NCBI GenBank assembly: GCA_913057775.1
Contig: CAJXOG010000003.1
Coordinates: forward strand, 248,001 to 312,000
Direction: 5' to 3'
Length of the DNA: 64,000 nt
Origin: an uncultured Fodinibius sp.
Lineage (GTDB): Bacteria > Bacteroidota > Rhodothermia > Balneolales > Balneolaceae
Below are positions 8,571-64,000 of the stretch, in pieces. The translations under genes were made by a program, and so were the position numbers. Numbering within the stretch: the stretch's first letter is position 1; each line of letters starts with the position of its first letter. The notes beneath the pieces were generated by a model, which was given only the letters and a program-made list of their open reading frames with translations, searched no databases and had not been told where the DNA came from.

Positions 8571-8848
8571 TGAATAGTTTATGGAAAAATCTATTGGAGT
8601 TATTAAGAGGGCAAAGCACACTTTTTATGGATCAGGTTATAGAATTATGCAAAGATCGTGAATTATTGCAATCATTTTCGGGATCTATGATTTTGGATGA
8701 TCTGGATTCGCTGAAGTGGTCTTACAAACGGTGTTCATCCAGAAATTTTCAAATTAGTCAACAACTGGAATTGGATTCTCCCTTGATACCGCAAGAAAAG
8801 CTGGATGATTATCTTATTGAGGGGGTTTTTGAAAGGGACAATGATTAA
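8570..8848 (+). CDS. Small hypothetical protein coupled to the GIY-YIG nuclease
   Basis: A 92-residue unrecognised protein that is Leu-rich and acidic at the C terminus (DDYLIEGVFERDND). Its ATG overlaps the stop of the nuclease gene, so the two are probably made together. The last four bases overlap the convergent M20 peptidase gene. No signal peptide, membrane segment or known motif is visible. Confidence 0.65.
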   Translation: MNSLWKNLLELLRGQSTLFMDQVIELCKDRELLQSFSGSMILDDLDSLKWSYKRCSSRNFQISQQLELDSPLIPQEKLDDYLIEGVFERDND

Positions 8849-10005
8849 TCAAAGATGGGGGATTCTAAAAGTAAAAGCGTGAATAACGCGAGTCGGTCTA
8901 ATGTTTGTTCCAGAAATATTTTTTCGTGGTAGGCGTGTGCCCCTTCACCAACGGCTCCCATTCCGTCGATAGTAGGAGAATACAAATTTGAGAAATTTCC
9001 ATCCGAGGCTCCTCCGGACATTCCATCCTCTAATTCCAAATCGAGTTCTTGCCCCAGCTTTTGAGTAACCTCCCAGAGTTTTTTATTGGATTCATTTTTT
9101 TCCAGCGGCGGCCGATTAATGTCTCCGGTTACCGATAGCTCAACCCCATCAATTTCTGGCTTAAGATTATATAATTCTTCTTTTATTCGTTCCCCGTCTT
9201 CCTGTGTTGGTATTCGTACATCAACCACAGCCTTACTTTTTGCGGCAACAACATTCGAACGTTCTCCGCCTTCTATAGTTCCAACATTGACCGTAACACC
9301 GTTTGCCGGGTCGTTTAAACGAAAGATCTGTTGTACAATGTGGGAGAGCCCTAAAATAGCACTTACACCTTCTTCCGGGGCCAGGCCTGCATGGGACGGC
9401 TTTCCGTTAATTGATATTACAAAATCGCCCACACCTTTGCGCCGGGTTTTTATTTTGCCCTCTTTACCCAGTGAAGGTTCTAACACAAATGTTCGTTCTG
9501 CTAACTTGGCTTGCTCAATAATACGCTCTTTGGATTCCTCACTGCCGATTTCTTCATCCGAATTAATAAGAAATATGGGTTGTACTTTGGGGATTTTCTC
9601 CAGATAGTAAATAGCCTGTATCCCAAAAATCATCATGGCTATTCCCGATTTCATATCATATACTCCCGGTCCAGCTACGATATCGTCTTCGATGCTGAAG
9701 GGCATCTCGTTAAGGGTTCCTACATTCCAAACGGTATCGCAATGGCCAAGAACCAATTGAGTGGGCTTAGAGGGATCAAAATCATTAGGTTTGCAGAGCA
9801 ACTGTCCAGCTGTTTTATCTCCCTCAAAGTGGGTAACTGAATAATCTATATTTTTAAACTGTTCTGACAAAAGTTCCCAGACCATAGAGAATGTTTCTGG
9901 CTGATCGGATGGGGTTTCAATTTCAACCAGTGATTGAAGTAGAGATAGGAAATCTGCTTTGTGCTCGCTAATATACTTACGTATCAGTCGGGCTTGATCA
10001 GTCAT
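8845..10005 (-). CDS. M20 family metallopeptidase (glutamate carboxypeptidase-like)
   Basis: A 386-residue zinc peptidase of the M20 family, probably cytoplasmic because no signal peptide is seen. Metal ligands and catalytic residues are present: His88 and Asp90 in LVLGHCDTVWNVG, Asp117 in GPGVYDMKSG, Glu151/Glu152 in NSDEEIGSEES, and a late His in GAHAYHEKIF. A dimerisation domain lies between (about 190-290; GKPSHAGLAPEEG). The closest resemblance is to carboxypeptidase G2-like enzymes that release C-terminal glutamate, but the substrate is uncertain. Only three bases separate it from the upstream flavin reductase-like gene, so they likely share a transcript. Confidence 0.9.
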   Translation of the reverse strand: MTDQARLIRKYISEHKADFLSLLQSLVEIETPSDQPETFSMVWELLSEQFKNIDYSVTHFEGDKTAGQLLCKPNDFDPSKPTQLVLGHCDTVWNVGTLNEMPFSIEDDIVAGPGVYDMKSGIAMMIFGIQAIYYLEKIPKVQPIFLINSDEEIGSEESKERIIEQAKLAERTFVLEPSLGKEGKIKTRRKGVGDFVISINGKPSHAGLAPEEGVSAILGLSHIVQQIFRLNDPANGVTVNVGTIEGGERSNVVAAKSKAVVDVRIPTQEDGERIKEELYNLKPEIDGVELSVTGDINRPPLEKNESNKKLWEVTQKLGQELDLELEDGMSGGASDGNFSNLYSPTIDGMGAVGEGAHAYHEKIFLEQTLDRLALFTLLLLESPIFD

Positions 10006-10008
10006 ATC

Positions 10009-10623
10009 TTAGCGTTTAAACTCTTTTGGAAATGGGAACACATTACTTTCTTTAATGACACTGAATCGATTGGGATGCAAGTAAGCCAATAAAGGATTGT
10101 CATAGATCAATTGCCCTTCGCCAATCCCGTCACCAATTTTTCTACTCATTTTTTTGTTGATTCGAGCAGCCACAATTTCACCGACAATCAACTCCCATTC
10201 CCCAAACTTCCCAAGACATTCCGTTAGTTTACATTCTAACTGGAAATAAGAGTCCTTTACAAAGTATCCTTCAATTTTTTCTGCAGGGGTGGTGGGAATC
10301 TGGTCGAGTATGGGTTTGGAATCGTCATCCTCGCGTTGAGTGGCGGCTAAACTCGAGACCGTTAGTTGACTTGGTTTGGGATAGCTTACCGTGAACACTT
10401 TTTCGCGTTGAATATTTCGATAAGTATTTTTGCGCGGTGTTCCTATAAATCCAAAATGATTGCTAAACCCCATCGGCATGGCCATGTGTTTGGGAGCAAA
10501 ATTGTAGTTCCCGTCTTCTTCCTTGCTGCCAATAATGAGCAGTGAATATACCGTATAGGTACGACTCCAAACATCCTGCTCAACATCAAGTTCGATCATT
10601 TCGTTACTGTTTTCTTCGGTCAT
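10009..10623 (-). CDS. Flavin reductase-like domain protein
   Basis: A 204-residue protein of the flavin reductase/flavoredoxin family that binds FMN in a split-barrel. Family features are the APKHMAMPMGFSNHFGFIGTPR segment, NIQREKVFTVSYPKPSQ, and ECLGKFGEWELIVGEIVAARI near the C terminus. It is the second member of a run of minus-strand genes with the STAS protein upstream (five bases apart) and the M20 peptidase downstream. Electron donor and acceptor are unknown. Confidence 0.85.
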   Translation of the reverse strand: MTEENSNEMIELDVEQDVWSRTYTVYSLLIIGSKEEDGNYNFAPKHMAMPMGFSNHFGFIGTPRKNTYRNIQREKVFTVSYPKPSQLTVSSLAATQREDDDSKPILDQIPTTPAEKIEGYFVKDSYFQLECKLTECLGKFGEWELIVGEIVAARINKKMSRKIGDGIGEGQLIYDNPLLAYLHPNRFSVIKESNVFPFPKEFKR

Positions 10624-10628
10624 AGTAA

Positions 10629-10928
10629 TTACTTATTTGTATTTATAACATTGGGTTGCCAGCTATTGTCAAGTTCCAGGATCTCGAGTATCTCAAAAAA
10701 TTCTTCCGGTGGATCAATAAGTTTCAGCTGTTTTCCTTCTTGGTGCCATTGGTGCAAAAAAATAATGCCTTCACTGTCTATGAATTTGCACTTACTGAGA
10801 TCAATTTTGAGTACACGCGTATTATCATTGATATGATTTAGAATCATATTTTTGATCCACAGGTTGAATCCACCTCTTATCTTAATATTCAAGGTTGATC
10901 CTTCTTTATGTATGCTTGGAATACTCAT
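10629..10928 (-). CDS. STAS-domain protein (anti-anti-sigma factor-like)
   Basis: A 99-residue single STAS domain. The phosphorylation motif is intact: Ser52 in IDSEGIIFLHQ, the position that an anti-sigma kinase modifies in SpoIIAA or RsbV. Its start codon lies 23 bases inside the end of the upstream ATPase-GNAT gene, so the two are translationally coupled. This gene order is typical for a partner-switching pair. The sigma factor or other target is not in the window. Confidence 0.85.
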   Translation of the reverse strand: MSIPSIHKEGSTLNIKIRGGFNLWIKNMILNHINDNTRVLKIDLSKCKFIDSEGIIFLHQWHQEGKQLKLIDPPEEFFEILEILELDNSWQPNVINTNK

Positions 10929-12375
10929 CGGTAATAAACGATTTTATATGTTGACCAAATTCAGAGTGAACATCAACAAGATCAAAATTAAAGGGAATAC
11001 AAATTCTTTGCAGTCGCAGGTAATCCGATTCATTATGAAAGTAGGGAGCCAGCCCACAGTAAAAAAAGCCTAATCCATCGAGTTGTCCTAATTGTACCGG
11101 TGTAGCTGAATTTTCAAGCGGTAAATCTAAGTAGACAGCATTGGGATCTTCCTGCTCAATCAAGCTGTTCAGCATTTCTCGCAGTACTGAACGGAAATCG
11201 GGACCGTACTTTTTTACGACAATAAGCGCTGTAGAATCCGCATAATTTATGGTCAGCTCAGCATCCGATTTTTCGGCCATTTTATAATACTCGTGCTGTT
11301 TAGGAGTAATGGGAATATCAAGTAAATTGTAAGTTTCCAAGAGGATATCATGGTATTTTTTTGGCAAGTAAATTTCTTTCGACGTTGCATGCTTAAGTGG
11401 TAATACGTCAATGACAACAGAAACCGGCTGTGGATAATCTTCATCAAATCCTTTAAAAACCACATTTTGGGTTTCCAGGAGCATGAGTCCCGCCGATACA
11501 AATCCGAACTTTTTATTCACACGTTGACTTACCGGATGGATTGTAACCGCTTTACCAAACAGTGCATCAAAATGATGTTCGCGTGCTACTCTTATAAGGT
11601 GTTCCATCATACCGCTCATGATACCCTTTTTCCTGTAGCGGGGCGAAACGACAGCTTCTCCCACCTCAGCAATATTTGAGTCACTTTTCTTTAAAATGGC
11701 GAAATACCCCAACGCTTCTCCCTTATCACTGCGAGTAATAACCCCAAGCTTTTCTTTGCCCGCCAATGTCTGCTCAATTTTTTTGGGAAAGTAGAGGTCC
11801 TCTTTTGTATAAGAGTACTCATATGTGCGATAAATAAGCTTGGCAATATCTTCGGCATCACGGGGAACAATTTGTTTGATGTTATAGGAAATTTCAGAGA
11901 CGGTATCCTCAGGCTCTTTTGGTTTTTCTGCCCTGGATAACTCCAGAAGTTTGTCAATTTTATGAACATCAACCGACTTTTGTAACCTGAACTCCTTACC
12001 CTCTTTGCCACGGTTAATGAATAAGAATTCGTCGGTGAATCGACGGATAATTCGTAATCCCGCACCTTCAAAATTCCCCTCTTTTATAGCTTCTTGAGCA
12101 TTGTATCGGTGTTTGTCGGGATCGAAGGGTTCCCCCACCTCACTGGCAATAAGTTCGATATCCGAAAGTGTTTGCCGGAAAGTGAGCTCAAAAAAACCTT
12201 GGCTCTTGTCGGGATAAGCAAATAAAATGATATCAGTAATAAGTTCACTGACCGCAATAGTGAATTTAGTGGCTTCCTGTTCGGATAAACCACAATTTAG
12301 GCACCAGCTATAGGTGAAGTCGCAAATTGGATTTATTGCTTGTTCATCAGTTGATATATGAAATTGTATATCCAT
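10906..12375 (-). CDS. Anti-sigma-like HATPase fused to GNAT acetyltransferase
   Basis: A 489-residue multidomain protein. Residues 1-135 resemble an RsbW/SpoIIAB-type kinase domain: N box region AVSELITDIILFAYPD, G1-like VGEPFDPDKH, G2-like GAGLRIIRRFTDEF. The N-box asparagine that binds magnesium is replaced by aspartate. Residues about 165-310 are a GNAT acetyltransferase with the acetyl-CoA loop SPRYRKKGIMSGMMEHLI. Residues 330-489 may be a second, degenerate GNAT-like fold (VYLDLPLENS, then GFFYCGLAPYFHNESDYLRLQ). The downstream overlapping gene is a STAS protein with an intact serine. It probably acts in a stress or signalling switch whose output may be acetylation; this is inference. 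Confidence 0.85.
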   Translation of the reverse strand: MDIQFHISTDEQAINPICDFTYSWCLNCGLSEQEATKFTIAVSELITDIILFAYPDKSQGFFELTFRQTLSDIELIASEVGEPFDPDKHRYNAQEAIKEGNFEGAGLRIIRRFTDEFLFINRGKEGKEFRLQKSVDVHKIDKLLELSRAEKPKEPEDTVSEISYNIKQIVPRDAEDIAKLIYRTYEYSYTKEDLYFPKKIEQTLAGKEKLGVITRSDKGEALGYFAILKKSDSNIAEVGEAVVSPRYRKKGIMSGMMEHLIRVAREHHFDALFGKAVTIHPVSQRVNKKFGFVSAGLMLLETQNVVFKGFDEDYPQPVSVVIDVLPLKHATSKEIYLPKKYHDILLETYNLLDIPITPKQHEYYKMAEKSDAELTINYADSTALIVVKKYGPDFRSVLREMLNSLIEQEDPNAVYLDLPLENSATPVQLGQLDGLGFFYCGLAPYFHNESDYLRLQRICIPFNFDLVDVHSEFGQHIKSFITDEYSKHT

Positions 12376-12404: not shown

Positions 12405-13061
12405 TTAATGTAGCATTTCTCCCACTATTATGCCTCTGAATATGAGATAAATACCAAAAGCTGCAGCCAAATATGGAATAAACTTATTAATACGCTGGCG
12501 CCAACCCACACTTACAAATCCCGGTGCCAAAGACATCATCAGCATTGCGGGAATCGTACCTAATCCAAATAAAGCCATAAACAGGCTGCCCTGAACAACA
12601 GAACCCGTGGTTACAGAGCCGGCTAATCCCACATAAACAAAACCGCAGGGTAACAATCCATTTAAAATACCAATGGTGAATAATGTGGTAGTGCCCCCCT
12701 TTTTAAATTGGGAGAGCATAAGTTTTTCAAGGCGATTAAATAATGTATTGATACCGACTTTTTGTTTCCATCCCTGGAAAGAATTAAACTGGAAAAGTGC
12801 GCCCGCAAGAATTAAAGCGCCCAGAAGTATTGATATTGATTGTTGAAGCCCTGCAAGGGCAATAGAGTGGCCAATAATGCCAAAGATAACCCCAAGAAGT
12901 GTATAGGTGAGTACTCGACCGATATTGTAGAGCAGGCGTCCTATGATGAGTGAGACCGTAGAATCGTTTTTTCCCGGCAGGGCCAGAGCAATGGGACCAC
13001 ACATACCAATACAATGGAAACTACCGAAAAAACCAATTGCCAGGGCCGACCAAATCTCCAT
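12405..13061 (-). CDS. SafE/TauE-like membrane protein (UreH/DsbD_2 type)
   Basis: A 218-residue inner-membrane protein with about six membrane segments. The N-terminal motif GFFGSFHCIGMCGPIALALPG carries the two conserved cysteines (C-x3-C in HCIGMCGP) typical of the family often called sulfite exporter TauE/SafE-like, found near cytochrome oxidase maturation genes and thought to move metal or reducing power. A second conserved stretch, GILNGLLPCGFVYVGLAGSV, has another cysteine. No cytochrome gene lies nearby here, so the role is open. It precedes the ATPase-GNAT gene by 29 bases and may head that transcript. Confidence 0.85.
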   Translation of the reverse strand: MEIWSALAIGFFGSFHCIGMCGPIALALPGKNDSTVSLIIGRLLYNIGRVLTYTLLGVIFGIIGHSIALAGLQQSISILLGALILAGALFQFNSFQGWKQKVGINTLFNRLEKLMLSQFKKGGTTTLFTIGILNGLLPCGFVYVGLAGSVTTGSVVQGSLFMALFGLGTIPAMLMMSLAPGFVSVGWRQRINKFIPYLAAAFGIYLIFRGIIVGEMLH

Positions 13062-13372
13062 AAAGTTTATTTTAAATAATTAATTAAATTCAGATAGTTC
13101 TTAGATTCGAAATTTGTTAACTATTTTAGTTGATGTACATTAATTCTGTTCACGTAGTTTTACTTTTTATTTTAGCTGTTTTTTAATGTTTTAATGATTT
13201 ATTTTTTTGACAGATTTTAAATTGCAGGTTACTTAAAGGGGGATCTGTGTAAATTATTTTATAGTAGATTTTTCTTAGAAACAATGTTGATTAATCTGGT
13301 ATTAAAGAAAATAATTAGTTCACGTGTTTTCTAACAGGGGACTTAGGGACTATTAAATCCAATCTTTTATAT
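13062..13372. other. Intergenic divergent promoter region
   Basis: 311 AT-rich bases between the SafE-like gene (leftward) and the Rrf2 regulator (rightward). No ORF of note, no RNA gene and no clear operator palindrome was recognised. It must contain both promoters. Confidence 0.4.
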
Positions 13373-13825
13373 ATGTTATTATCAAATGCTTGTGTATATG
13401 GTTTAAGAGCTTCAGTTTATTTGGCTGCGGTTTCGGATGATTCTTATGTATCTATCAAAAAAATTAGTAACGACCTCGATATTTCCCATCATTTTTTAAC
13501 AAAAGTATTACAACAACTTACCAGAGCAGACATGATGGAGTCGATGAAGGGACCAAAGGGGGGAGTTCGCTTGGTGAATTCTACTGATGAAATTACTTTG
13601 TTAGATATTGTTGCGGTCATTGATGGGATGGATATTTTAACCGAATGTGCGTTAGGCTTGCCGGGTTGCGGAACAGAGAAACCATGTCCGATCCACGATA
13701 AGTGGGCCGACACACGGGATGAAATTCGAAAAATGCTATCCAGTACATCACTGCAAGATCTGGTTGATGAAGGCAAATCTGGTAATCTGCGAATAACAGC
13801 TGACGGGAATTTCAAATGGATGTAA
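13373..13825 (+). CDS. Rrf2 family regulator with Fe-S type cysteines
   Basis: A 150-residue Rrf2 protein with an N-terminal winged helix (YVSIKKISNDLDISHHFLTKVLQQL, then GPKGGVRL wing). Three cysteines, Cys92, Cys99 and Cys105 in TECALGLPGCGTEKPCPIHDKW, match the cluster ligands of NsrR/IscR-type members. By family it senses NO, redox state or Fe-S supply and represses or activates genes accordingly. Its targets are not evident. The adjacent ATP-cone nuclease gene begins 32 bases downstream and may be co-transcribed. Confidence 0.92.
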   Translation: MLLSNACVYGLRASVYLAAVSDDSYVSIKKISNDLDISHHFLTKVLQQLTRADMMESMKGPKGGVRLVNSTDEITLLDIVAVIDGMDILTECALGLPGCGTEKPCPIHDKWADTRDEIRKMLSSTSLQDLVDEGKSGNLRITADGNFKWM

Positions 13826-13857
13826 GCTAACTTTTACAGAAAAAGAGAGGCGCAGTT

Positions 13858-14712
13858 ATGGGAAGCGTAAATGTTACGAAAGCTTCAGGAGGCACTGAAC
13901 CCTATGATGAATCCAAGCTGCGCCAATCTCTTGCGGGTGCTGGGGCAGATCAGGAGATAATTGATCGTATAGCTGATACCGTTGATCAAATGCTTTATGA
14001 CGGTATTTCCACCCAAAAACTTTATCGTGAAGCCTTCCGATTATTAAAACAGCATTCCAATCGCTTTGCCGGTCGGTATAAACTTAAAGAGGCCCTTTTT
14101 GAGTTGGGACCCACCGGATATCCCTTTGAAAAATTTACCGCAGAGCTGTTAAAAAGGTTGGGATATACGACTGAGGTCGGTCAGATTATCGAGGGAAATT
14201 GTGTCTCGCACGAGGTTGATGTTGTTGCTGAAAAAGGTGATGATTTTTTTATTGTAGAGTGTAAGTTCCACAATCGGAAAGATCATAAATGCAATGTACA
14301 AGTACCCTTGTATATCCAATCTAGGTTTGAGGATGTAAAGCGAAAGTGGAGCCGAAAGCCGGGCCACAAAGGAAAAAATCATCATGGTTGGGTGGTGACC
14401 AATACCCGTTTTACCAATGATGCCCAGCAATACGGTAAATGTATAGGGTTGAATTTATTAAGTTGGGATTATCCTGAAAATAAAGGACTTAAAGATCTGA
14501 TAAGTCGCGTAAATTTGCATCCGGTCACGTGTTTATCAACTTTGAGCAGTGATGAGAAGAAAAAATTTTTAGAACAGGATATCATATTTTGTCAGCAGTT
14601 GGCAGAGGATAAGAGCGTGCTCGATGAAATGGGTTGGGACAGTAGAAAATCCGGTAATATCTATCGAGAGGCCAAGGCCATTGCAACCTTTAACAACAAA
14701 ACGGATAAATAA
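13858..14712 (+). CDS. ATP-cone domain fused to Mrr-like nuclease
   Basis: A 284-residue protein. Residues 3-90 are an ATP-cone domain (VNVTKASGGTEPYDESKLRQSL, later KLYREAFRLLKQHSNRFAGRY), the nucleotide-sensing module better known from ribonucleotide reductases and NrdR. Residues about 95-210 form a PD-(D/E)xK nuclease-like domain (FEKFTAELLKRLGY, then HEVDVVAEKGDDFFIVECKF with the D and ExK residues). The C-terminal 70 residues are unassigned. A ribosome-binding site GAGAGGCG precedes the ATG. It may be a nuclease gated by ATP/dATP, in restriction or repair; the function is inferred from domains only. Confidence 0.87.
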   Translation: MGSVNVTKASGGTEPYDESKLRQSLAGAGADQEIIDRIADTVDQMLYDGISTQKLYREAFRLLKQHSNRFAGRYKLKEALFELGPTGYPFEKFTAELLKRLGYTTEVGQIIEGNCVSHEVDVVAEKGDDFFIVECKFHNRKDHKCNVQVPLYIQSRFEDVKRKWSRKPGHKGKNHHGWVVTNTRFTNDAQQYGKCIGLNLLSWDYPENKGLKDLISRVNLHPVTCLSTLSSDEKKKFLEQDIIFCQQLAEDKSVLDEMGWDSRKSGNIYREAKAIATFNNKTDK

Positions 14713-14822
14713 CGAAGTACAGATTAATTTTTGGTAGGAGCGGAAACGGTAATCGGTTCCAAACTTTTGCTCAACTTTTCGAACGAAAACATGCGTGTGG
14801 ATTGGGAAATATTATCCTGTAA

Positions 14823-14942
14823 AAGCAAGAATTTATTAAGTGGGTTGATAGAGTTACAGAGTCGCCTAAAAAAAATTTTCTGATCCACGGAGAACTACAG
14901 TCGCCGGATATGATGAGAGTAAAACTTAAAGATAAAAAATGA
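14823..14942 (+). pseudogene. C-terminal remnant of an MBL-fold RNA exonuclease-like protein
   Basis: No complete gene lies in 14713-15115, but the frame at 14823-14942 reads KQEFIKWVDRV followed by PKKNFLIHGELQ and ends in TGA. This resembles the end of beta-lactamase-fold/beta-CASP RNA exonucleases, where a helix of the type xELLDWL is followed by a strand with VHGE. The frame is closed by a stop just upstream, so only about 39 codons remain. I read it as a decayed gene end; the match is short and a search is needed to confirm it. Confidence 0.5.
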
Positions 14943-14981
14943 TGGATCGTCGGTATTTCCGAAATTTTTAATATCCATCAT
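14939..14981. repeat. Inverted repeat / possible hairpin
   Basis: Perfect 9-bp arms ATGATGGAT (14939-14947) and ATCCATCAT (14973-14981) enclose 25 bases that contain a smaller TCGG/CCGA pairing. It starts at the stop codon of the pseudogene remnant and may be its old transcript end; no T-run follows. Confidence 0.45.
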
Positions 14982-15115
14982 GTTGCACGTTGATTTTTGG
15001 ATTTTGAGCAAACTCTAAGCTGTAGAATTGAGAAAATCTTCATACTCCTTTCAAAGTAAAAGACTACTTTCGTCCGCAATGTTAATATCCAGATTATTTC
15101 AATTAGTTCATTCTT

Positions 15116-59686: not shown

Positions 59687-60216
59687 GGCCCGTACCTCTT
59701 TATCGCTTCATCCAGCGTTATGGATTGCTTGTTTGATTTGCAGTAAAAGTGGCCACTGGAAAGCGACTGGTAATAATACTGTCCATTGATTCGCAGCCAC
59801 CGTAACGGGCGACGGGACCGCCCGTTTCCTGCCCACCCGTCTACGTGCAAACCGATAGCCGGTACGTTGTTACGTTCTTTGTTGGTGTAGGTCCAATCAA
59901 AGTACAAGCCTACGCCGTTAAATCCCCAAGTAGTAGCGAGAAGCCAGTGCCGGAGAGCAGATGGTTGACTCGTAAGCCACTGGTCAAACAGCAGGACATC
60001 AAAGGCAAGACCACGCCCGTGGGACTTCGGATCTCCTTTACGCCAAGCCGAGGAAATAAGGATGGAGATGCCGTGCCACTGGCGCCAAGCTAGAAAAGAC
60101 CGTAAAAAGCCTATGTCCATGCGATGGATGGTGCCGGGACCTTGTACTTCGAATTCGGAGATAGAAAAGTGATTGCCATAACTGTCGAGGAGGGCTAAGT
60201 AATCATTTCTGTTCAT
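59683..60216 (-). CDS. M15-type peptidase, probable endolysin
   Basis: A 177-residue protein with the zinc residues of the M15 fold: His66 and Asp73 in KSHGRGLAFDVL and His124 in IGLHVDGWAG. Such enzymes cut D-amino-acid bonds in peptidoglycan. No signal peptide is present, so export would need a holin. The flanking genes encode small membrane proteins, which fits a lysis module. Confidence 0.75.
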   Translation of the reverse strand: MNRNDYLALLDSYGNHFSISEFEVQGPGTIHRMDIGFLRSFLAWRQWHGISILISSAWRKGDPKSHGRGLAFDVLLFDQWLTSQPSALRHWLLATTWGFNGVGLYFDWTYTNKERNNVPAIGLHVDGWAGNGRSRRPLRWLRINGQYYYQSLSSGHFYCKSNKQSITLDEAIKRYGP

Positions 60217-60217
60217 G

Positions 60218-60466
60218 TTAGTTTCCTCTTGTGGCTATGGTGAGAAGGAGAATGAGCGCAGCTGCTCCGGCTATTTTATAGCTGGTCGGTATTTCGCCGT
60301 TGATGTATTTTTTGGCTTCGCTGATAAGATCTTTCTGGGTTTCAGGAGCCTTAGCTTCTCCGAGTCCCGCGCTGCAGCCGCAATCGGGCTGGGTGACAGT
60401 TGCCCCGCCCGAAAGTCCATTGCCGGCGCATCCACAGGGGTGTTCGTTTACAAAAGAGGTTTCCAT
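60218..60466 (-). CDS. Small Gly/Cys-rich protein with C-terminal membrane segment
   Basis: An 82-residue protein with a Gly- and Cys-rich front (HPCGCAGNG, then QPDCGCSAGLG) and a C-terminal hydrophobic helix (IAGAAALILLLTIA). It is unrecognised and may be a virion or membrane-associated protein. Confidence 0.6.
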   Translation of the reverse strand: METSFVNEHPCGCAGNGLSGGATVTQPDCGCSAGLGEAKAPETQKDLISEAKKYINGEIPTSYKIAGAAALILLLTIATRGN

Positions 60467-60492
60467 AGTATTTCACCTGAATGTTTGAGTTA

Positions 60493-60942
60493 TTAAAAGA
60501 GGATTTTCCAAAGAAGCAGGCTGCCTGCAATTCCACCACCAGCCAAAGCCACATGGGTTTTGTTTACCTGCATGCCGCCAATGCTAAAAGTGCCCGCTAG
60601 GATATCCTTGTGGGAATTAGGCTGCTGCTTGCTGACAGATTTGTTTGTGTTTTTAGGTTTAGAGGTCGGCTTCGACTGCTTAGTAGTGGGTTTCTTAACT
60701 GTGTTGAAATTTAGCTTGGGAGGAGCAGGTATTGGATTTTTGTCAATAACCGGCCGAGGTAAAAGAACAGGCTTTGGTTTTGGGATAGGTCGTGGCCGTA
60801 TTCGTGGTTTAATTTCCCGGCCTCGATTGCGCGGCATAGGTTCATCCAGGACCGGGCGAAGCATAGTTGGTCGCGTCGGCATTCGTCCCAATCCTTGGGC
60901 TTCATCGAGTTCTTCGTAGAGGTAACGTGATTCAGTGTTCAT
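60493..60942 (-). CDS. Pro/Lys/Arg-rich protein with C-terminal membrane segment
   Basis: A 149-residue protein with a basic, proline-rich middle (KPRIRPRPIPKPKPVLLPRP) and a hydrophobic end (LAGGGIAGSLLLWKILF). It overlaps the transglycosylase gene by four bases. It could be a membrane-anchored structural or spike-associated protein of a virus; there is no known family. Confidence 0.6.
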   Translation of the reverse strand: MNTESRYLYEELDEAQGLGRMPTRPTMLRPVLDEPMPRNRGREIKPRIRPRPIPKPKPVLLPRPVIDKNPIPAPPKLNFNTVKKPTTKQSKPTSKPKNTNKSVSKQQPNSHKDILAGTFSIGGMQVNKTHVALAGGGIAGSLLLWKILF

Positions 60943-61499
60943 GGGCGTTGGGTGGTCATATAGTTATAAGTTGCAAAGGCTATAGCGGCCATAGGAAGGA
61001 CGTATATGGACAAGCTAGTTGCTGTGGAGAGACCGATGAGCTGGCCGATGAGCTGTTTACGCCCCAGCACATCTTGGCTGTAATCCCGGCCGGTAGTAAC
61101 GGAATCTGGTGGTAAGCCCGCGTAAATAGCAGTTTGTACTCTGTTTGGGCCGGCGTTATAGGCGGCAACGGCTTGGGCAGTATTTCCGTTGAACTGCCTG
61201 AGCAGTTTGGCCAGATACTCAGTGCCATAATCAATATTGGCTTGGTGGTCAAAGGGGCTGTGATTCTCGGTAAACCCGGGATGATATCGCCGGTCAATCT
61301 GCATGATTCCGATGCCATTGCCCCAGTCTCCAGTGCCATCAGCTGACAGGGCCAGTCCCATGCGACTCTCTCGGGAAGCCACAGCCAGTAGCAGTGCCAG
61401 GGGCACGCCGTATCGCCTGGAGGCATCAGCGAAATATCCCATGAGGCCACGAATCCGGACGTAGGTAAGCTCGGCCGATATCGAAAAAGAACTGGTCAT
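60939..61499 (-). CDS. Lytic transglycosylase with C-terminal membrane segment
   Basis: A 186-residue SLT-type transglycosylase. The catalytic glutamate is Glu44 in AVASRESRMGLA, followed by GIGIMQIDRRYHPG and VAAYNAGPNRVQTAI. It cleaves the peptidoglycan glycan chain. The end is hydrophobic (IYVLPMAAIAFATYN), so it is membrane-anchored, as in PRD1-like viruses whose entry enzyme is a membrane-bound transglycosylase. It abuts the 496-codon virion-like gene. Confidence 0.85.
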   Translation of the reverse strand: MTSSFSISAELTYVRIRGLMGYFADASRRYGVPLALLLAVASRESRMGLALSADGTGDWGNGIGIMQIDRRYHPGFTENHSPFDHQANIDYGTEYLAKLLRQFNGNTAQAVAAYNAGPNRVQTAIYAGLPPDSVTTGRDYSQDVLGRKQLIGQLIGLSTATSLSIYVLPMAAIAFATYNYMTTQRP

Positions 61500-62950
61500 T
61501 ACACCACCATCTTAATCTTGTAGTTAACCTTGCGCATTTGTCCGGCCATGATGGTAAACTGATCGGCAGGGGCTAGGGCTTTACGAGCAACTAACTTGGG
61601 TACCCACTCATCATAATCGTCTCCACGGTTGGCGTAAATACCTACCTCCTTTATGGTGATGTCGGTAGTGCCCCTGTTTTCAAACACACGCGCCAGGTTG
61701 AAGTGCGCTTCATTATTGACCTCATCAATGGTTACCTGGTCATCGATGAGCATGCCGTGATGGATGAGCTCCCCGTCTCCGCTGCCATGGGTAATACCTC
61801 CGAGGTTATAAGGAGTCTCTTGCGTGGCATCGGGAGAAAGGTCAGCGTCTGTCATAGAGACAAATTTGTTGCTTTGGCCCAGCCGGAGTCCCAGGTGCCA
61901 CCCTTTATTGACTTCCGAAGCCCGGCGCTCTAGGGAGGTCATTGAGGTTCCACCCCCACCGATACACATCAGGTCCCGCCAGTTGGTATTGGTGTTTTCG
62001 ACCGCTTGTTTTCGTAGTGCTCCCACAAATTCAGCGGTGAACCCCCCGTTGGAACCATTGAGGTCGGTATCTTGGTTGAAGTTTTCAAGCTCAAACCGGC
62101 ACTCGTAGTCCAAGGTCAGCGTTTTGCCATTCGGCAGATTCAGGGCTGCCGGCAGCACATCGCGGGCATAGAGGGTGGCAATGGTGTTGATTTCATGGCG
62201 GTTGACATTGATGTGCGTCATCAGCCCCATTTCTGTGATAGCTAGGTCACCCCCGGATCCATTTGTAAACGGGGCCGACACGGTAAAGACGCTTTTCTGC
62301 TGGTCGGTAACCACGCCGGAAACCGATCGTGCCCCACGAGTCAGTAGTGCGTCAATGGGATTATGAAGGCCCACATCAGAGATGCTTACCGGGCGGCCGC
62401 CTTGCCCGATGGTCGGTAAGATAACGCGAAAAGGTGGGCAGTAGCTTTCGGTGGTCGTAATAGGGTGATAGTGTTTGGCAATGACTTTCGCCTGGTCTGG
62501 GGCGTACGTCGCCGGATCAAAATTCGTAGGTGCGTCTTTGAGGCGTATGTAGTAGTCGCCATGGGTGCTTTCAACTTCCCAGGTGCCGTTGATCTGTGGG
62601 ACCGAGCTGCACCCCCAGATGTGTACCCACACCGGCTCCTCGCCGTTGGGATTGACCCCATGCATGCCGCTGAATATATATTGCAAGTAGTACTGACTGT
62701 AGATTTCCAGGGCCCCATCAACGATTTGCATAGACGTTATTTTCCCGTCCTGCACGTAATCGTCCCCGGGGCTAATCAGGCGATTGGTTTTGCCGCCGTG
62801 CATCATCCCGTGGACGTCGCGCAGGAGGTTGCCCACGAACGACTCGCAGTGCATCCGAAACAGGTGCTCCCCGTCGATGCTCACGTTGCAAAACAGGTCC
62901 ATCCCTGATTTCGGGGTGCCAATGGAAAGGGTTTGATTGATGGTATTCAT
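61499..62950 (-). CDS. Virion-like structural protein
   Basis: A 483-residue protein that is beta-rich, without signal peptide. Sequences such as MGLMTHINVNRHEIN and IKEVGIYANRGDDYDEWVPKLVARKAL are the style of phage fibre or capsid-associated proteins with repeated 'genuine feature' loops. I chose ATG 62950 because the earlier ATG (62989) overlaps the previous gene. The exact role is not known. Confidence 0.6.
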   Translation of the reverse strand: MNTINQTLSIGTPKSGMDLFCNVSIDGEHLFRMHCESFVGNLLRDVHGMMHGGKTNRLISPGDDYVQDGKITSMQIVDGALEIYSQYYLQYIFSGMHGVNPNGEEPVWVHIWGCSSVPQINGTWEVESTHGDYYIRLKDAPTNFDPATYAPDQAKVIAKHYHPITTTESYCPPFRVILPTIGQGGRPVSISDVGLHNPIDALLTRGARSVSGVVTDQQKSVFTVSAPFTNGSGGDLAITEMGLMTHINVNRHEINTIATLYARDVLPAALNLPNGKTLTLDYECRFELENFNQDTDLNGSNGGFTAEFVGALRKQAVENTNTNWRDLMCIGGGGTSMTSLERRASEVNKGWHLGLRLGQSNKFVSMTDADLSPDATQETPYNLGGITHGSGDGELIHHGMLIDDQVTIDEVNNEAHFNLARVFENRGTTDITIKEVGIYANRGDDYDEWVPKLVARKALAPADQFTIMAGQMRKVNYKIKMVV

Positions 62951-62954
62951 AGGG

Positions 62955-63506
62955 TCAGCTAATAATGGTAATAGGGTTGGTGGTGGCATTGCTGCTGGTG
63001 GCTCCCGTCAGCTCCGACAGGTTTGCATTCGTTGTTAATCCACTTGTAATAGATTGCGAGGTCGCTTCCGGCTGGTGGTCTGCACGTATATTCGTCGCTG
63101 GGGCGCAGGCCAGATACCCTTCTTGCCCATCAATAGGTTGCAGCTCCAAGATGACCTGGCCGATCGGAGACTGGGTAGTCCGCTGGACATCATCAGGCGT
63201 AATGACCGAATAAATACGAGATTGGCCGACCTGCCCACCTGCGGTCTTGGATCGAACCCGGAAGTAATGGCGGGCATCCAGGTAGGTGATGGGGAAATAG
63301 AGCGTGTGATAACGGACCATCTCCCCGGGCTCGCGGTGATATTCAGGGGTGGTTGCCAGATTCTCGGGATCTAGGCCCCAATCCATCTGGGATGAGGCTT
63401 TTTTGCCGGTGGCCCAAGATACCTGGATAGAGCCGTCGACCAGCATGCCGCTGACGACCCGCATTTTAAATCCTTCGGAAAACTCTTTGCCGGTAATTTC
63501 GCTCAT
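62955..63506 (-). CDS. Fibronectin type III-like protein of the viral-like region
   Basis: A 183-residue protein with an FN3-like beta-sandwich (GSIQVSWATGKKASSQMDWG, then YLDARHYFRVRSKTAGG) that often serves as an adhesion module in phage tails and capsids. The C-terminal third is Ser/Thr/Ala-rich. It is two bases from the next upstream gene. Confidence 0.65.
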   Translation of the reverse strand: MSEITGKEFSEGFKMRVVSGMLVDGSIQVSWATGKKASSQMDWGLDPENLATTPEYHREPGEMVRYHTLYFPITYLDARHYFRVRSKTAGGQVGQSRIYSVITPDDVQRTTQSPIGQVILELQPIDGQEGYLACAPATNIRADHQPEATSQSITSGLTTNANLSELTGATSSNATTNPITIIS

Positions 63507-63507
63507 G

Positions 63508-63927
63508 CTAGGTGGTCCAGAAGATTTCGGTTACGAGAGCTTTCGAGGTTTCCAGGGCTCCGCTAGTCTCATCCCACAGGCCCATCATGCCGCCTTTGTA
63601 CAGCTCCTTGAACTGGCGCTCGTCCATGTGCAGGGTTTCCCCGGGCTTCAGCCGAAATGTATAGTACATGTCGTCGATACGATTTTCGTCCAGGGCGACC
63701 ATAAACTCACCATCGCTGCTATTTTGGATGATGACGCCCAGACGCATGGGGTTACCATTTACGAGTTTGACAGGACTTGCCCCCTGCTTGAGGACCGGGG
63801 AAATAGAGGTCCCAATACGTCCGGCGGGTCCGATCCCGATGGAAGGTGCATTTACCTTGAGTTGATCCAGTAGACTATCCATTTTTTGGGTGAGCTCGCA
63901 AAGCGACTGGATGAGGTTGTTCCACAT
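63508..63927 (-). CDS. Hypothetical protein of the viral-like region
   Basis: A 139-residue protein with a short helical start and a beta-rich second half (VIIQNSSDGEFMVALDENRI, then FRLKPGETLHMDERQFKEL). Such small structural proteins are common in virions. No specific family is recognised. Confidence 0.6.
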   Translation of the reverse strand: MWNNLIQSLCELTQKMDSLLDQLKVNAPSIGIGPAGRIGTSISPVLKQGASPVKLVNGNPMRLGVIIQNSSDGEFMVALDENRIDDMYYTFRLKPGETLHMDERQFKELYKGGMMGLWDETSGALETSKALVTEIFWTT

Positions 63928-63930
63928 TGG

Positions 63931-64000
63931 TTATACCTCCAGCGGGTTGGCATCGGACTTCTGCACCACGTAGGACTCGCACAAGAAACTTACGCTAGCC
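63931..64000 (-). CDS. 3' end of another viral-like gene (5' end outside window)
   Basis: Read on the minus strand, the frame gives ASVSFLCESYVVQKSDANPL and then EV before TAA (stop at 63931-63933). It is followed three bases later by the next gene's ATG, in line with the close packing of this region. Only 23 codons are visible. Confidence 0.55.
   Translation of the reverse strand, partial: ASVSFLCESYVVQKSDANPLEV

Follow-up and report, generated by a model that had tools for sequence, protein, structure and literature searches.

A fusion gene in the window (the whole stretch of 64,000 nucleotides analysed here) joins an RsbW-like ATPase to a GNAT domain and a conserved C-terminal domain, and overlaps a gene for a STAS-only protein. 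Judging from the sequences of this locus and its relatives, we consider it somewhat probable that the two products form a partner switch that gates an acetyltransferase-like enzyme, with an ATPase that, in the clade of fusions to which the window protein belongs, is a weak kinase or not a kinase. The enzyme is the candidate target of the switch because it shares a chain with the ATPase and because unfused versions of the parts are linked in operons.

Table 1: Features of the fusion locus and the genes downstream of it, in window positions.
Feature	Position	Strand	Basis
Fusion protein, 489 aa: RsbW-like ATPase, GNAT and C-terminal domain	10906..12375	-	ORF; AlphaFold2 model
RsbW/SpoIIAB-like ATPase domain, residues 1-136	11968..12375	-	HATPase_c_2; structure comparison
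N-box core E44-L-I-T-D48: Asn to Asp, Glu retained	12232..12246	-	alignment to B. subtilis RsbW 6m36
E79: Glu in place of G1-box Asp	12139..12141	-	alignment to 6m36 RsbW; clade counts
G2 loop G104-A-G-L107, intact in the window protein	12055..12066	-	alignment
GNAT domain, residues 162-333	11377..11892	-	Acetyltransf_1; structure comparison
GNAT motif A R248-K-K-G-I-M253; Met at last position, not Gly/Ala	11617..11634	-	alignment
C-terminal domain, residues 334-489	10909..11376	-	model; strand/helix order resembling second half of GNAT fold
STAS-only protein, 99 aa; start codon within fusion gene	10629..10928	-	ORF
STAS Ser52, putative phospho-acceptor	10773..10775	-	alignment with Ser of RsbV MDS motif
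Flavin-reductase-like protein, 204 aa; 5 bases downstream of STAS	10009..10623	-	PF01613; co-occurrence
M20-family hydrolase, 386 aa; 3-base gap after flavin-reductase-like gene	8845..10005	-	PF01546/PF07687; co-occurrence

The initial annotation had described an RsbW-like ATPase joined to a GNAT domain, and both assignments are borne out by Pfam matches over cut-off: HATPase_c_2 at residues 10-133 (46.2 bits against 27.4) and Acetyltransf_1 at residues 177-292 (40.3 bits against 20.7). Fold comparison used an AlphaFold2 model from 66 sequences (mean pLDDT 92.2), which replaced an earlier model from 13 sequences with a poor ATPase domain. The ATPase domain aligns with RsbW (6m37; Z 17.4, rmsd 1.6, 115 residues aligned) and SpoIIAB (1th8; Z 17.3), and residues 162-333 align with many GNATs at Z of about 13. 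GNAT motif A has the consensus R/Q-x-x-G-x-G/A; its last position is Met in 30/30 rows of the window protein's clade and F, L, M, R, Q or A in 29 others. The further GNAT-like part that had also been noted is real and conserved as a domain, and it is the kinship with GNAT that profile comparison leaves without support: hhalign of the C-terminal domain against the first GNAT was not significant, an unrelated ATPase-domain control scored equally well, and fold comparison of the fusion barely covered these residues. A second, degenerate GNAT was thus not confirmed.

In RsbW-type kinases, the N-box Asn is a Mg ligand and the G1-box Asp contacts adenine. Alignment to RsbW upholds the reported change of the N-box Asn to Asp and reveals a second substitution absent from the initial annotation, E79. 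To place both changes, we counted residues over 30 distinct fusions of one clade that spans Balneolaceae to Desulfurobacteriaceae (clade A), over 29 fusions outside it and over 25 solo RsbW rows. Within clade A, the N-box residue is Asp in 28 fusions and Asn in the other two, and the catalytic Glu44 is present in all 30; 29 fusions have Glu at position 79, and 22 retain the second Gly of the G2 loop, the other eight having GA[SAC]. Outside clade A, the N-box residue is Asn in 22 fusions, another residue in 7 and never Asp; the Glu44 position is Glu in 26/29; and at the G1 position 18 fusions have Asp and 9 have Glu, every one of these 9 with an N-box Asn. The solo rows, which are those in already fetched loci and not a random sample, and which include L085_3233, a truncated copy of the L001 gene, are canonical at the N-box, Glu and G1 positions throughout. 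The underlying 59-row tree omits L046 (200-residue key the same as that of L050), L057 and L121 (truncated at contig ends), L114 (ORF caller missed the right frame) and copies of one gene under several locus ids.

Across these sequences, the change to an N-box Asp is old, extends over the clade and does not reflect decay of the window copy, because Asp occurs in 28/30 clade-A fusions against 0/29 other fusions and 0/25 solo rows. By the same counts, the G1 Glu is the more widespread substitution and is not strictly paired with the N-box Asp; an origin of the two as a pair is ruled out by the nine fusions that combine Glu with Asn. One clade-A member, L018:1486-2964, has the canonical Asn and Asp, and its tree neighbours have Asp and Glu. 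Its placement inside clade A on the tree tends to disfavour the canonical pair as the ancestral state.

The overlapping STAS gene with an intact serine, another element of the initial annotation, holds up: the two ORFs share 23 bases and Ser52 falls on the Ser of the RsbV MDS motif. Taken alone, the window STAS protein scores under both Pfam cut-offs (25.2 of 29.2 bits and 22.3 of 22.6 bits). Among 13 orthologues, 11 match STAS_2 and 8 match STAS at E 0.01, and the family profile aligns with RsbV positions 4-99 at E 0.009, with the two Ser residues matched. In 29/31 clade-A loci, the fusion is followed by a STAS ORF that overlaps it; the remaining two loci stop at a contig end. The acceptor position in these proteins is Ser in 22/29 and Thr in 7/29, never Asp, Asn or Ala, and the preceding residue is Asp (19/29) or Asn (10/29). 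Lys follows the acceptor in 8/8 members with a GA[SAC] ATPase loop and in 0/21 others, a match that counts as one correlated event because the eight members form one subclade.

Does the clade-A ATPase phosphorylate this partner? Asn347 of EnvZ is presumably the N-box Asn, and N347D would then be the same Asn-to-Asp change. Dutta and Inouye (1996), as cited in three papers, call that variant kinase-minus and phosphatase-plus in their title. Together with the N-box counts, this title makes plausible the earlier suggestion that the ATPase may bind without phosphorylating; the invariant Glu (30/30) and Ser/Thr acceptor (29/29) would fit a living kinase equally well. On these data, Asp48 speaks against kinase activity, and E44 and the invariant Ser/Thr speak for it.

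The strongest alternative accordingly keeps the gating and makes the ATPase a working Ser/Thr kinase: Asp48 would bind Mg, E44 would act as the base, Ser52 would be phosphorylated and a PP2C encoded in the genome would reset the switch. We regard this as a serious possibility, somewhat short of an even chance. The conserved E44 and acceptor argue for it, although the Ser/Thr may merely cap a helix, and so does the occurrence of the G1 Glu alongside a normal N-box in nine other fusions, yet the N-box Asp, the relaxed G2 loop in 8/30 clade-A members and the EnvZ precedent, known from its title, point the other way. Similarly, the genome holds five SpoIIE-type PP2C genes, and related loci carry a canonical solo RsbW with PP2C, but none of the five lies on the window's contig. 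Elsewhere in the same genome, STAS, RsbW and PP2C genes form a locus of their own, in which RsbW is canonical (G000:C12, about 12500-15000; loci L001, L085 and L091). The PP2C genes and this locus may serve the fusion switch or others.

Support for gating of an enzyme also comes from relatives in which the parts are separate. The GNAT and C-terminal parts occur alone, as a protein of about 340 aa, in the phylum of L054 (titled Deltaproteobacteria), which also holds fusions with mostly canonical ATPases. In profile searches that scored the best five candidates per genome, 50/297 genomes of this phylum reach E 1e-20 or better, and in four of these the match is confined to the ATPase part. Fused and unfused enzymes fall on two sides of one branch (SH-aLRT 100). 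We sampled 60 regions around part of the listed matches, chiefly those near the top of the lists. A solo RsbW gene lies within 2 kb and on the same strand for 7/38 unfused enzyme genes; six of these seven loci also have STAS, and the regions of five contain a PP2C gene. Fused enzymes outside clade A have STAS within 2 kb in 6/27 cases, four of them with solo RsbW as well. Within 1.5 kb of enzyme genes, there are 13 STAS genes and 11 solo RsbW genes in 178 kb, against one and none, respectively, in the 447 kb farther away in the same regions. PP2C genes show no enrichment at that distance (1 near, 7 far), and those of the deltaproteobacterial operons are placed further downstream. No STAS or RsbW gene lies within 2 kb of the other 31/38 unfused enzyme genes and no STAS gene within 2 kb of the other 21/27 fused enzymes outside clade A, so the enzyme often works without an adjoining switch.

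One of these operons, L170, encodes in order molybdenum hydroxylase subunits, an MFS transporter, the enzyme, STAS, RsbW, an NMT1-like binding protein and a Cache-HAMP PP2C. By length, order and opening residues, L168 and L190 resemble it (Pfam was run on one L168 aminotransferase only), L184 does so save for a different-looking transporter, and L169 and L197 do so in part. Neither Pfam (at 1e-3) nor NCBIfam (at 0.01) gives a match for the unfused L170 enzyme, and its GNAT assignment therefore rests on the profile used to search the phylum. The gene sets of L170:2343-11955, L168, L184 and L190 are possibly complete partner switches, from sensor to enzyme. Elsewhere, L178:5968-10191 contains a tandem array of four unfused genes for the double-domain acetyltransferase-like enzyme.

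These loci allow a broader reading, which we advance tentatively and think rather doubtful as a whole: partner switches with a tandem-domain acetyltransferase as their direct output would be widespread, with separate enzyme/STAS/RsbW/PP2C forms and with fused forms in which kinase and enzyme share a chain; in clade A, the kinase would now be a non-phosphorylating docking domain, leaving a phosphorylation-independent, two-protein STAS switch.

Conservation and gene order bear on what the enzyme does. Full-length orthologues of the fusion are present in 13/38 genomes, the window's own included, and the closest named full-length relatives are Aliifodinibius records (90% and 82% identity), which makes a Balneolaceae host very likely. 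Against the 90% orthologue, dN/dS is 0.033 for the ATPase, 0.052 for the GNAT and 0.037 for the C-terminus, with dS above 1 in the fusion domains and close to saturation; the linker gives 0.29 and STAS 0.113. All three fusion domains are under purifying selection, and the spread of full-length orthologues together with the low domain dN/dS argues that the fusion is not a chance product. Orthologues of the M20 hydrolase (E <=1e-40) and the flavin reductase (E <=1e-15) occur in exactly the same 13/38 genomes and in 0/25 others. Both genes lie downstream in 22/22 Balneolaceae rows, with L009 as the locus that stands for the window, and in one Rhodothermales record. M20 is present, with no flavin reductase detected, in three further Bacteroidetes records; in the three Desulfurobacteriaceae or Thermovibrio records that include flanking sequence, neither gene was detected. 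As the metabolic genes were not detected in parts of clade A and STAS is kept, gene order across the clade indicates that STAS is the constant partner of the fusion and the metabolic genes are additions. No relatives came from viral contigs, and PHROGs returned generic acetyltransferase matches only; PADLOC gave no match at 0.01, thus no sign of a known defence system. Matches to MRP1 were taken as chance.

The strict co-occurrence with metabolic genes favours a third explanation, a constitutive two-gene complex: an acetyltransferase of an amino-acid or osmolyte pathway, acting with M20, would have the ATPase relic and STAS as its structural subunits, and nothing would be switched. Weak, sub-cut-off matches to beta-lysine and amino-acid N-acetyltransferases agree with such a role, as does the loss of the N-box residue in other ways in 7/29 other fusions. 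We nevertheless find this explanation unlikely: the STAS acceptor position is conserved, and some unfused relatives adjoin regulatory modules, among whose genes is one for a Cache-HAMP PP2C.

That the switch would gate acetylation and not a sigma factor, as first proposed, gains genomic support from the unfused enzyme genes beside RsbW (7/38, mostly with STAS too), from the linkage of fusion and STAS across phyla and from the sigma factors of the genome. A single protein exceeds the cut-off for Sigma70 region 3; it has regions 1.2, 2, 3 and 4, scores best with RpoD models, though under the RpoD cut-offs, and reaches 111.8 of 234.35 bits with the SigB/SigF/SigG model. A second, weak region-3 match is a LacI-type repressor. 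No SigB-type sigma factor was found in the genome by this region-3 search (ECF sigma factors lie outside its scope), and a scan of the six neighbouring genes revealed no sigma factor of any kind. An ordinary anti-sigma switch that still controls a sigma factor, with an incidental GNAT, would fit the RsbW fold and STAS partner but is very improbable with one RpoD-like region-3 factor in the genome and none in those six genes.

For the favoured reading, in which the switch gates the enzyme and the clade-A ATPase is weak or not a kinase, we start from the observed anatomy, conservation and linkage and from the region-3 search, which turned up no SigB-type sigma factor, and infer the following mechanism. 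The RsbW-like domain, tied to the enzyme, would serve as its docking and nucleotide-sensing part. The STAS protein would bind this domain and alter the state of the adjoining GNAT domain, and acetylation, should the domain prove active, would thereby be switched on or off. The substrate is probably small, and the M20 hydrolase and flavin-reductase-like protein would take part in handling it; the M20 neighbour leads us to guess at a small N-acylated compound. In clade A, the N-box Asp, added to an older or separately arisen G1 Glu, would have made the ATPase weak or non-phosphorylating, in which case the switch may be reset through binding, nucleotide state or another kinase.

Like the B. subtilis RsbW/SpoIIAB-RsbV/SpoIIAA-PP2C systems, the window system has the ATPase fold, a STAS partner and a conserved Ser, and some relatives of the enzyme lie near a full STAS-RsbW-PP2C set, as in B. 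subtilis partner switching. By contrast, the window ATPase is fused to an acetyltransferase-like enzyme and has an N-box Asp and a G1 Glu, no SigB-type sigma factor was found in its genome and its contig has no PP2C match. GNAT N-acetyltransferases joined to regulatory domains exist, for example cNMP-regulated Pat; both combine a GNAT with an attached sensor, which in the window protein is an RsbW-like ATPase with a STAS partner. The review PMC8256260 describes SypA/SypE, BtrV/BtrW, RbaV/RbaW and HmpV/HmpW as non-canonical STAS-only systems, mostly with unknown targets. As presented there, they share with the window system a STAS/kinase pair and an output other than classical sigma release, but in the window system and its relatives the candidate enzymatic output is fused or encoded by the next gene. 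Rv1364c of M. tuberculosis (structure 3ke6; PMC9138534) also has partner-switch parts in one chain, but it has no acetyltransferase and is linked to sigma F.

Among the matches listed in open-licence PMC text, titles and abstract openings, we recognised no description of an RsbW-GNAT or STAS-GNAT system; the parts are known, and their arrangement as an enzyme-output partner switch appears to be undescribed in that text. With a candidate target either on the same polypeptide or encoded by the adjacent gene, a non-sigma output of a partner switch becomes directly testable, and the natural N-box Asp clade with its two Asn members offers a test of whether STAS binding is kept after phosphorylation is lost.

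Two other features of the window lie outside the locus. At 13858-14712 (+), one protein joins an N-terminal ATP-cone to an Mrr-type restriction endonuclease domain, and at 60001-64000 the GC content rises to 0.529, compared with 0.38-0.48 in the remainder of the window.
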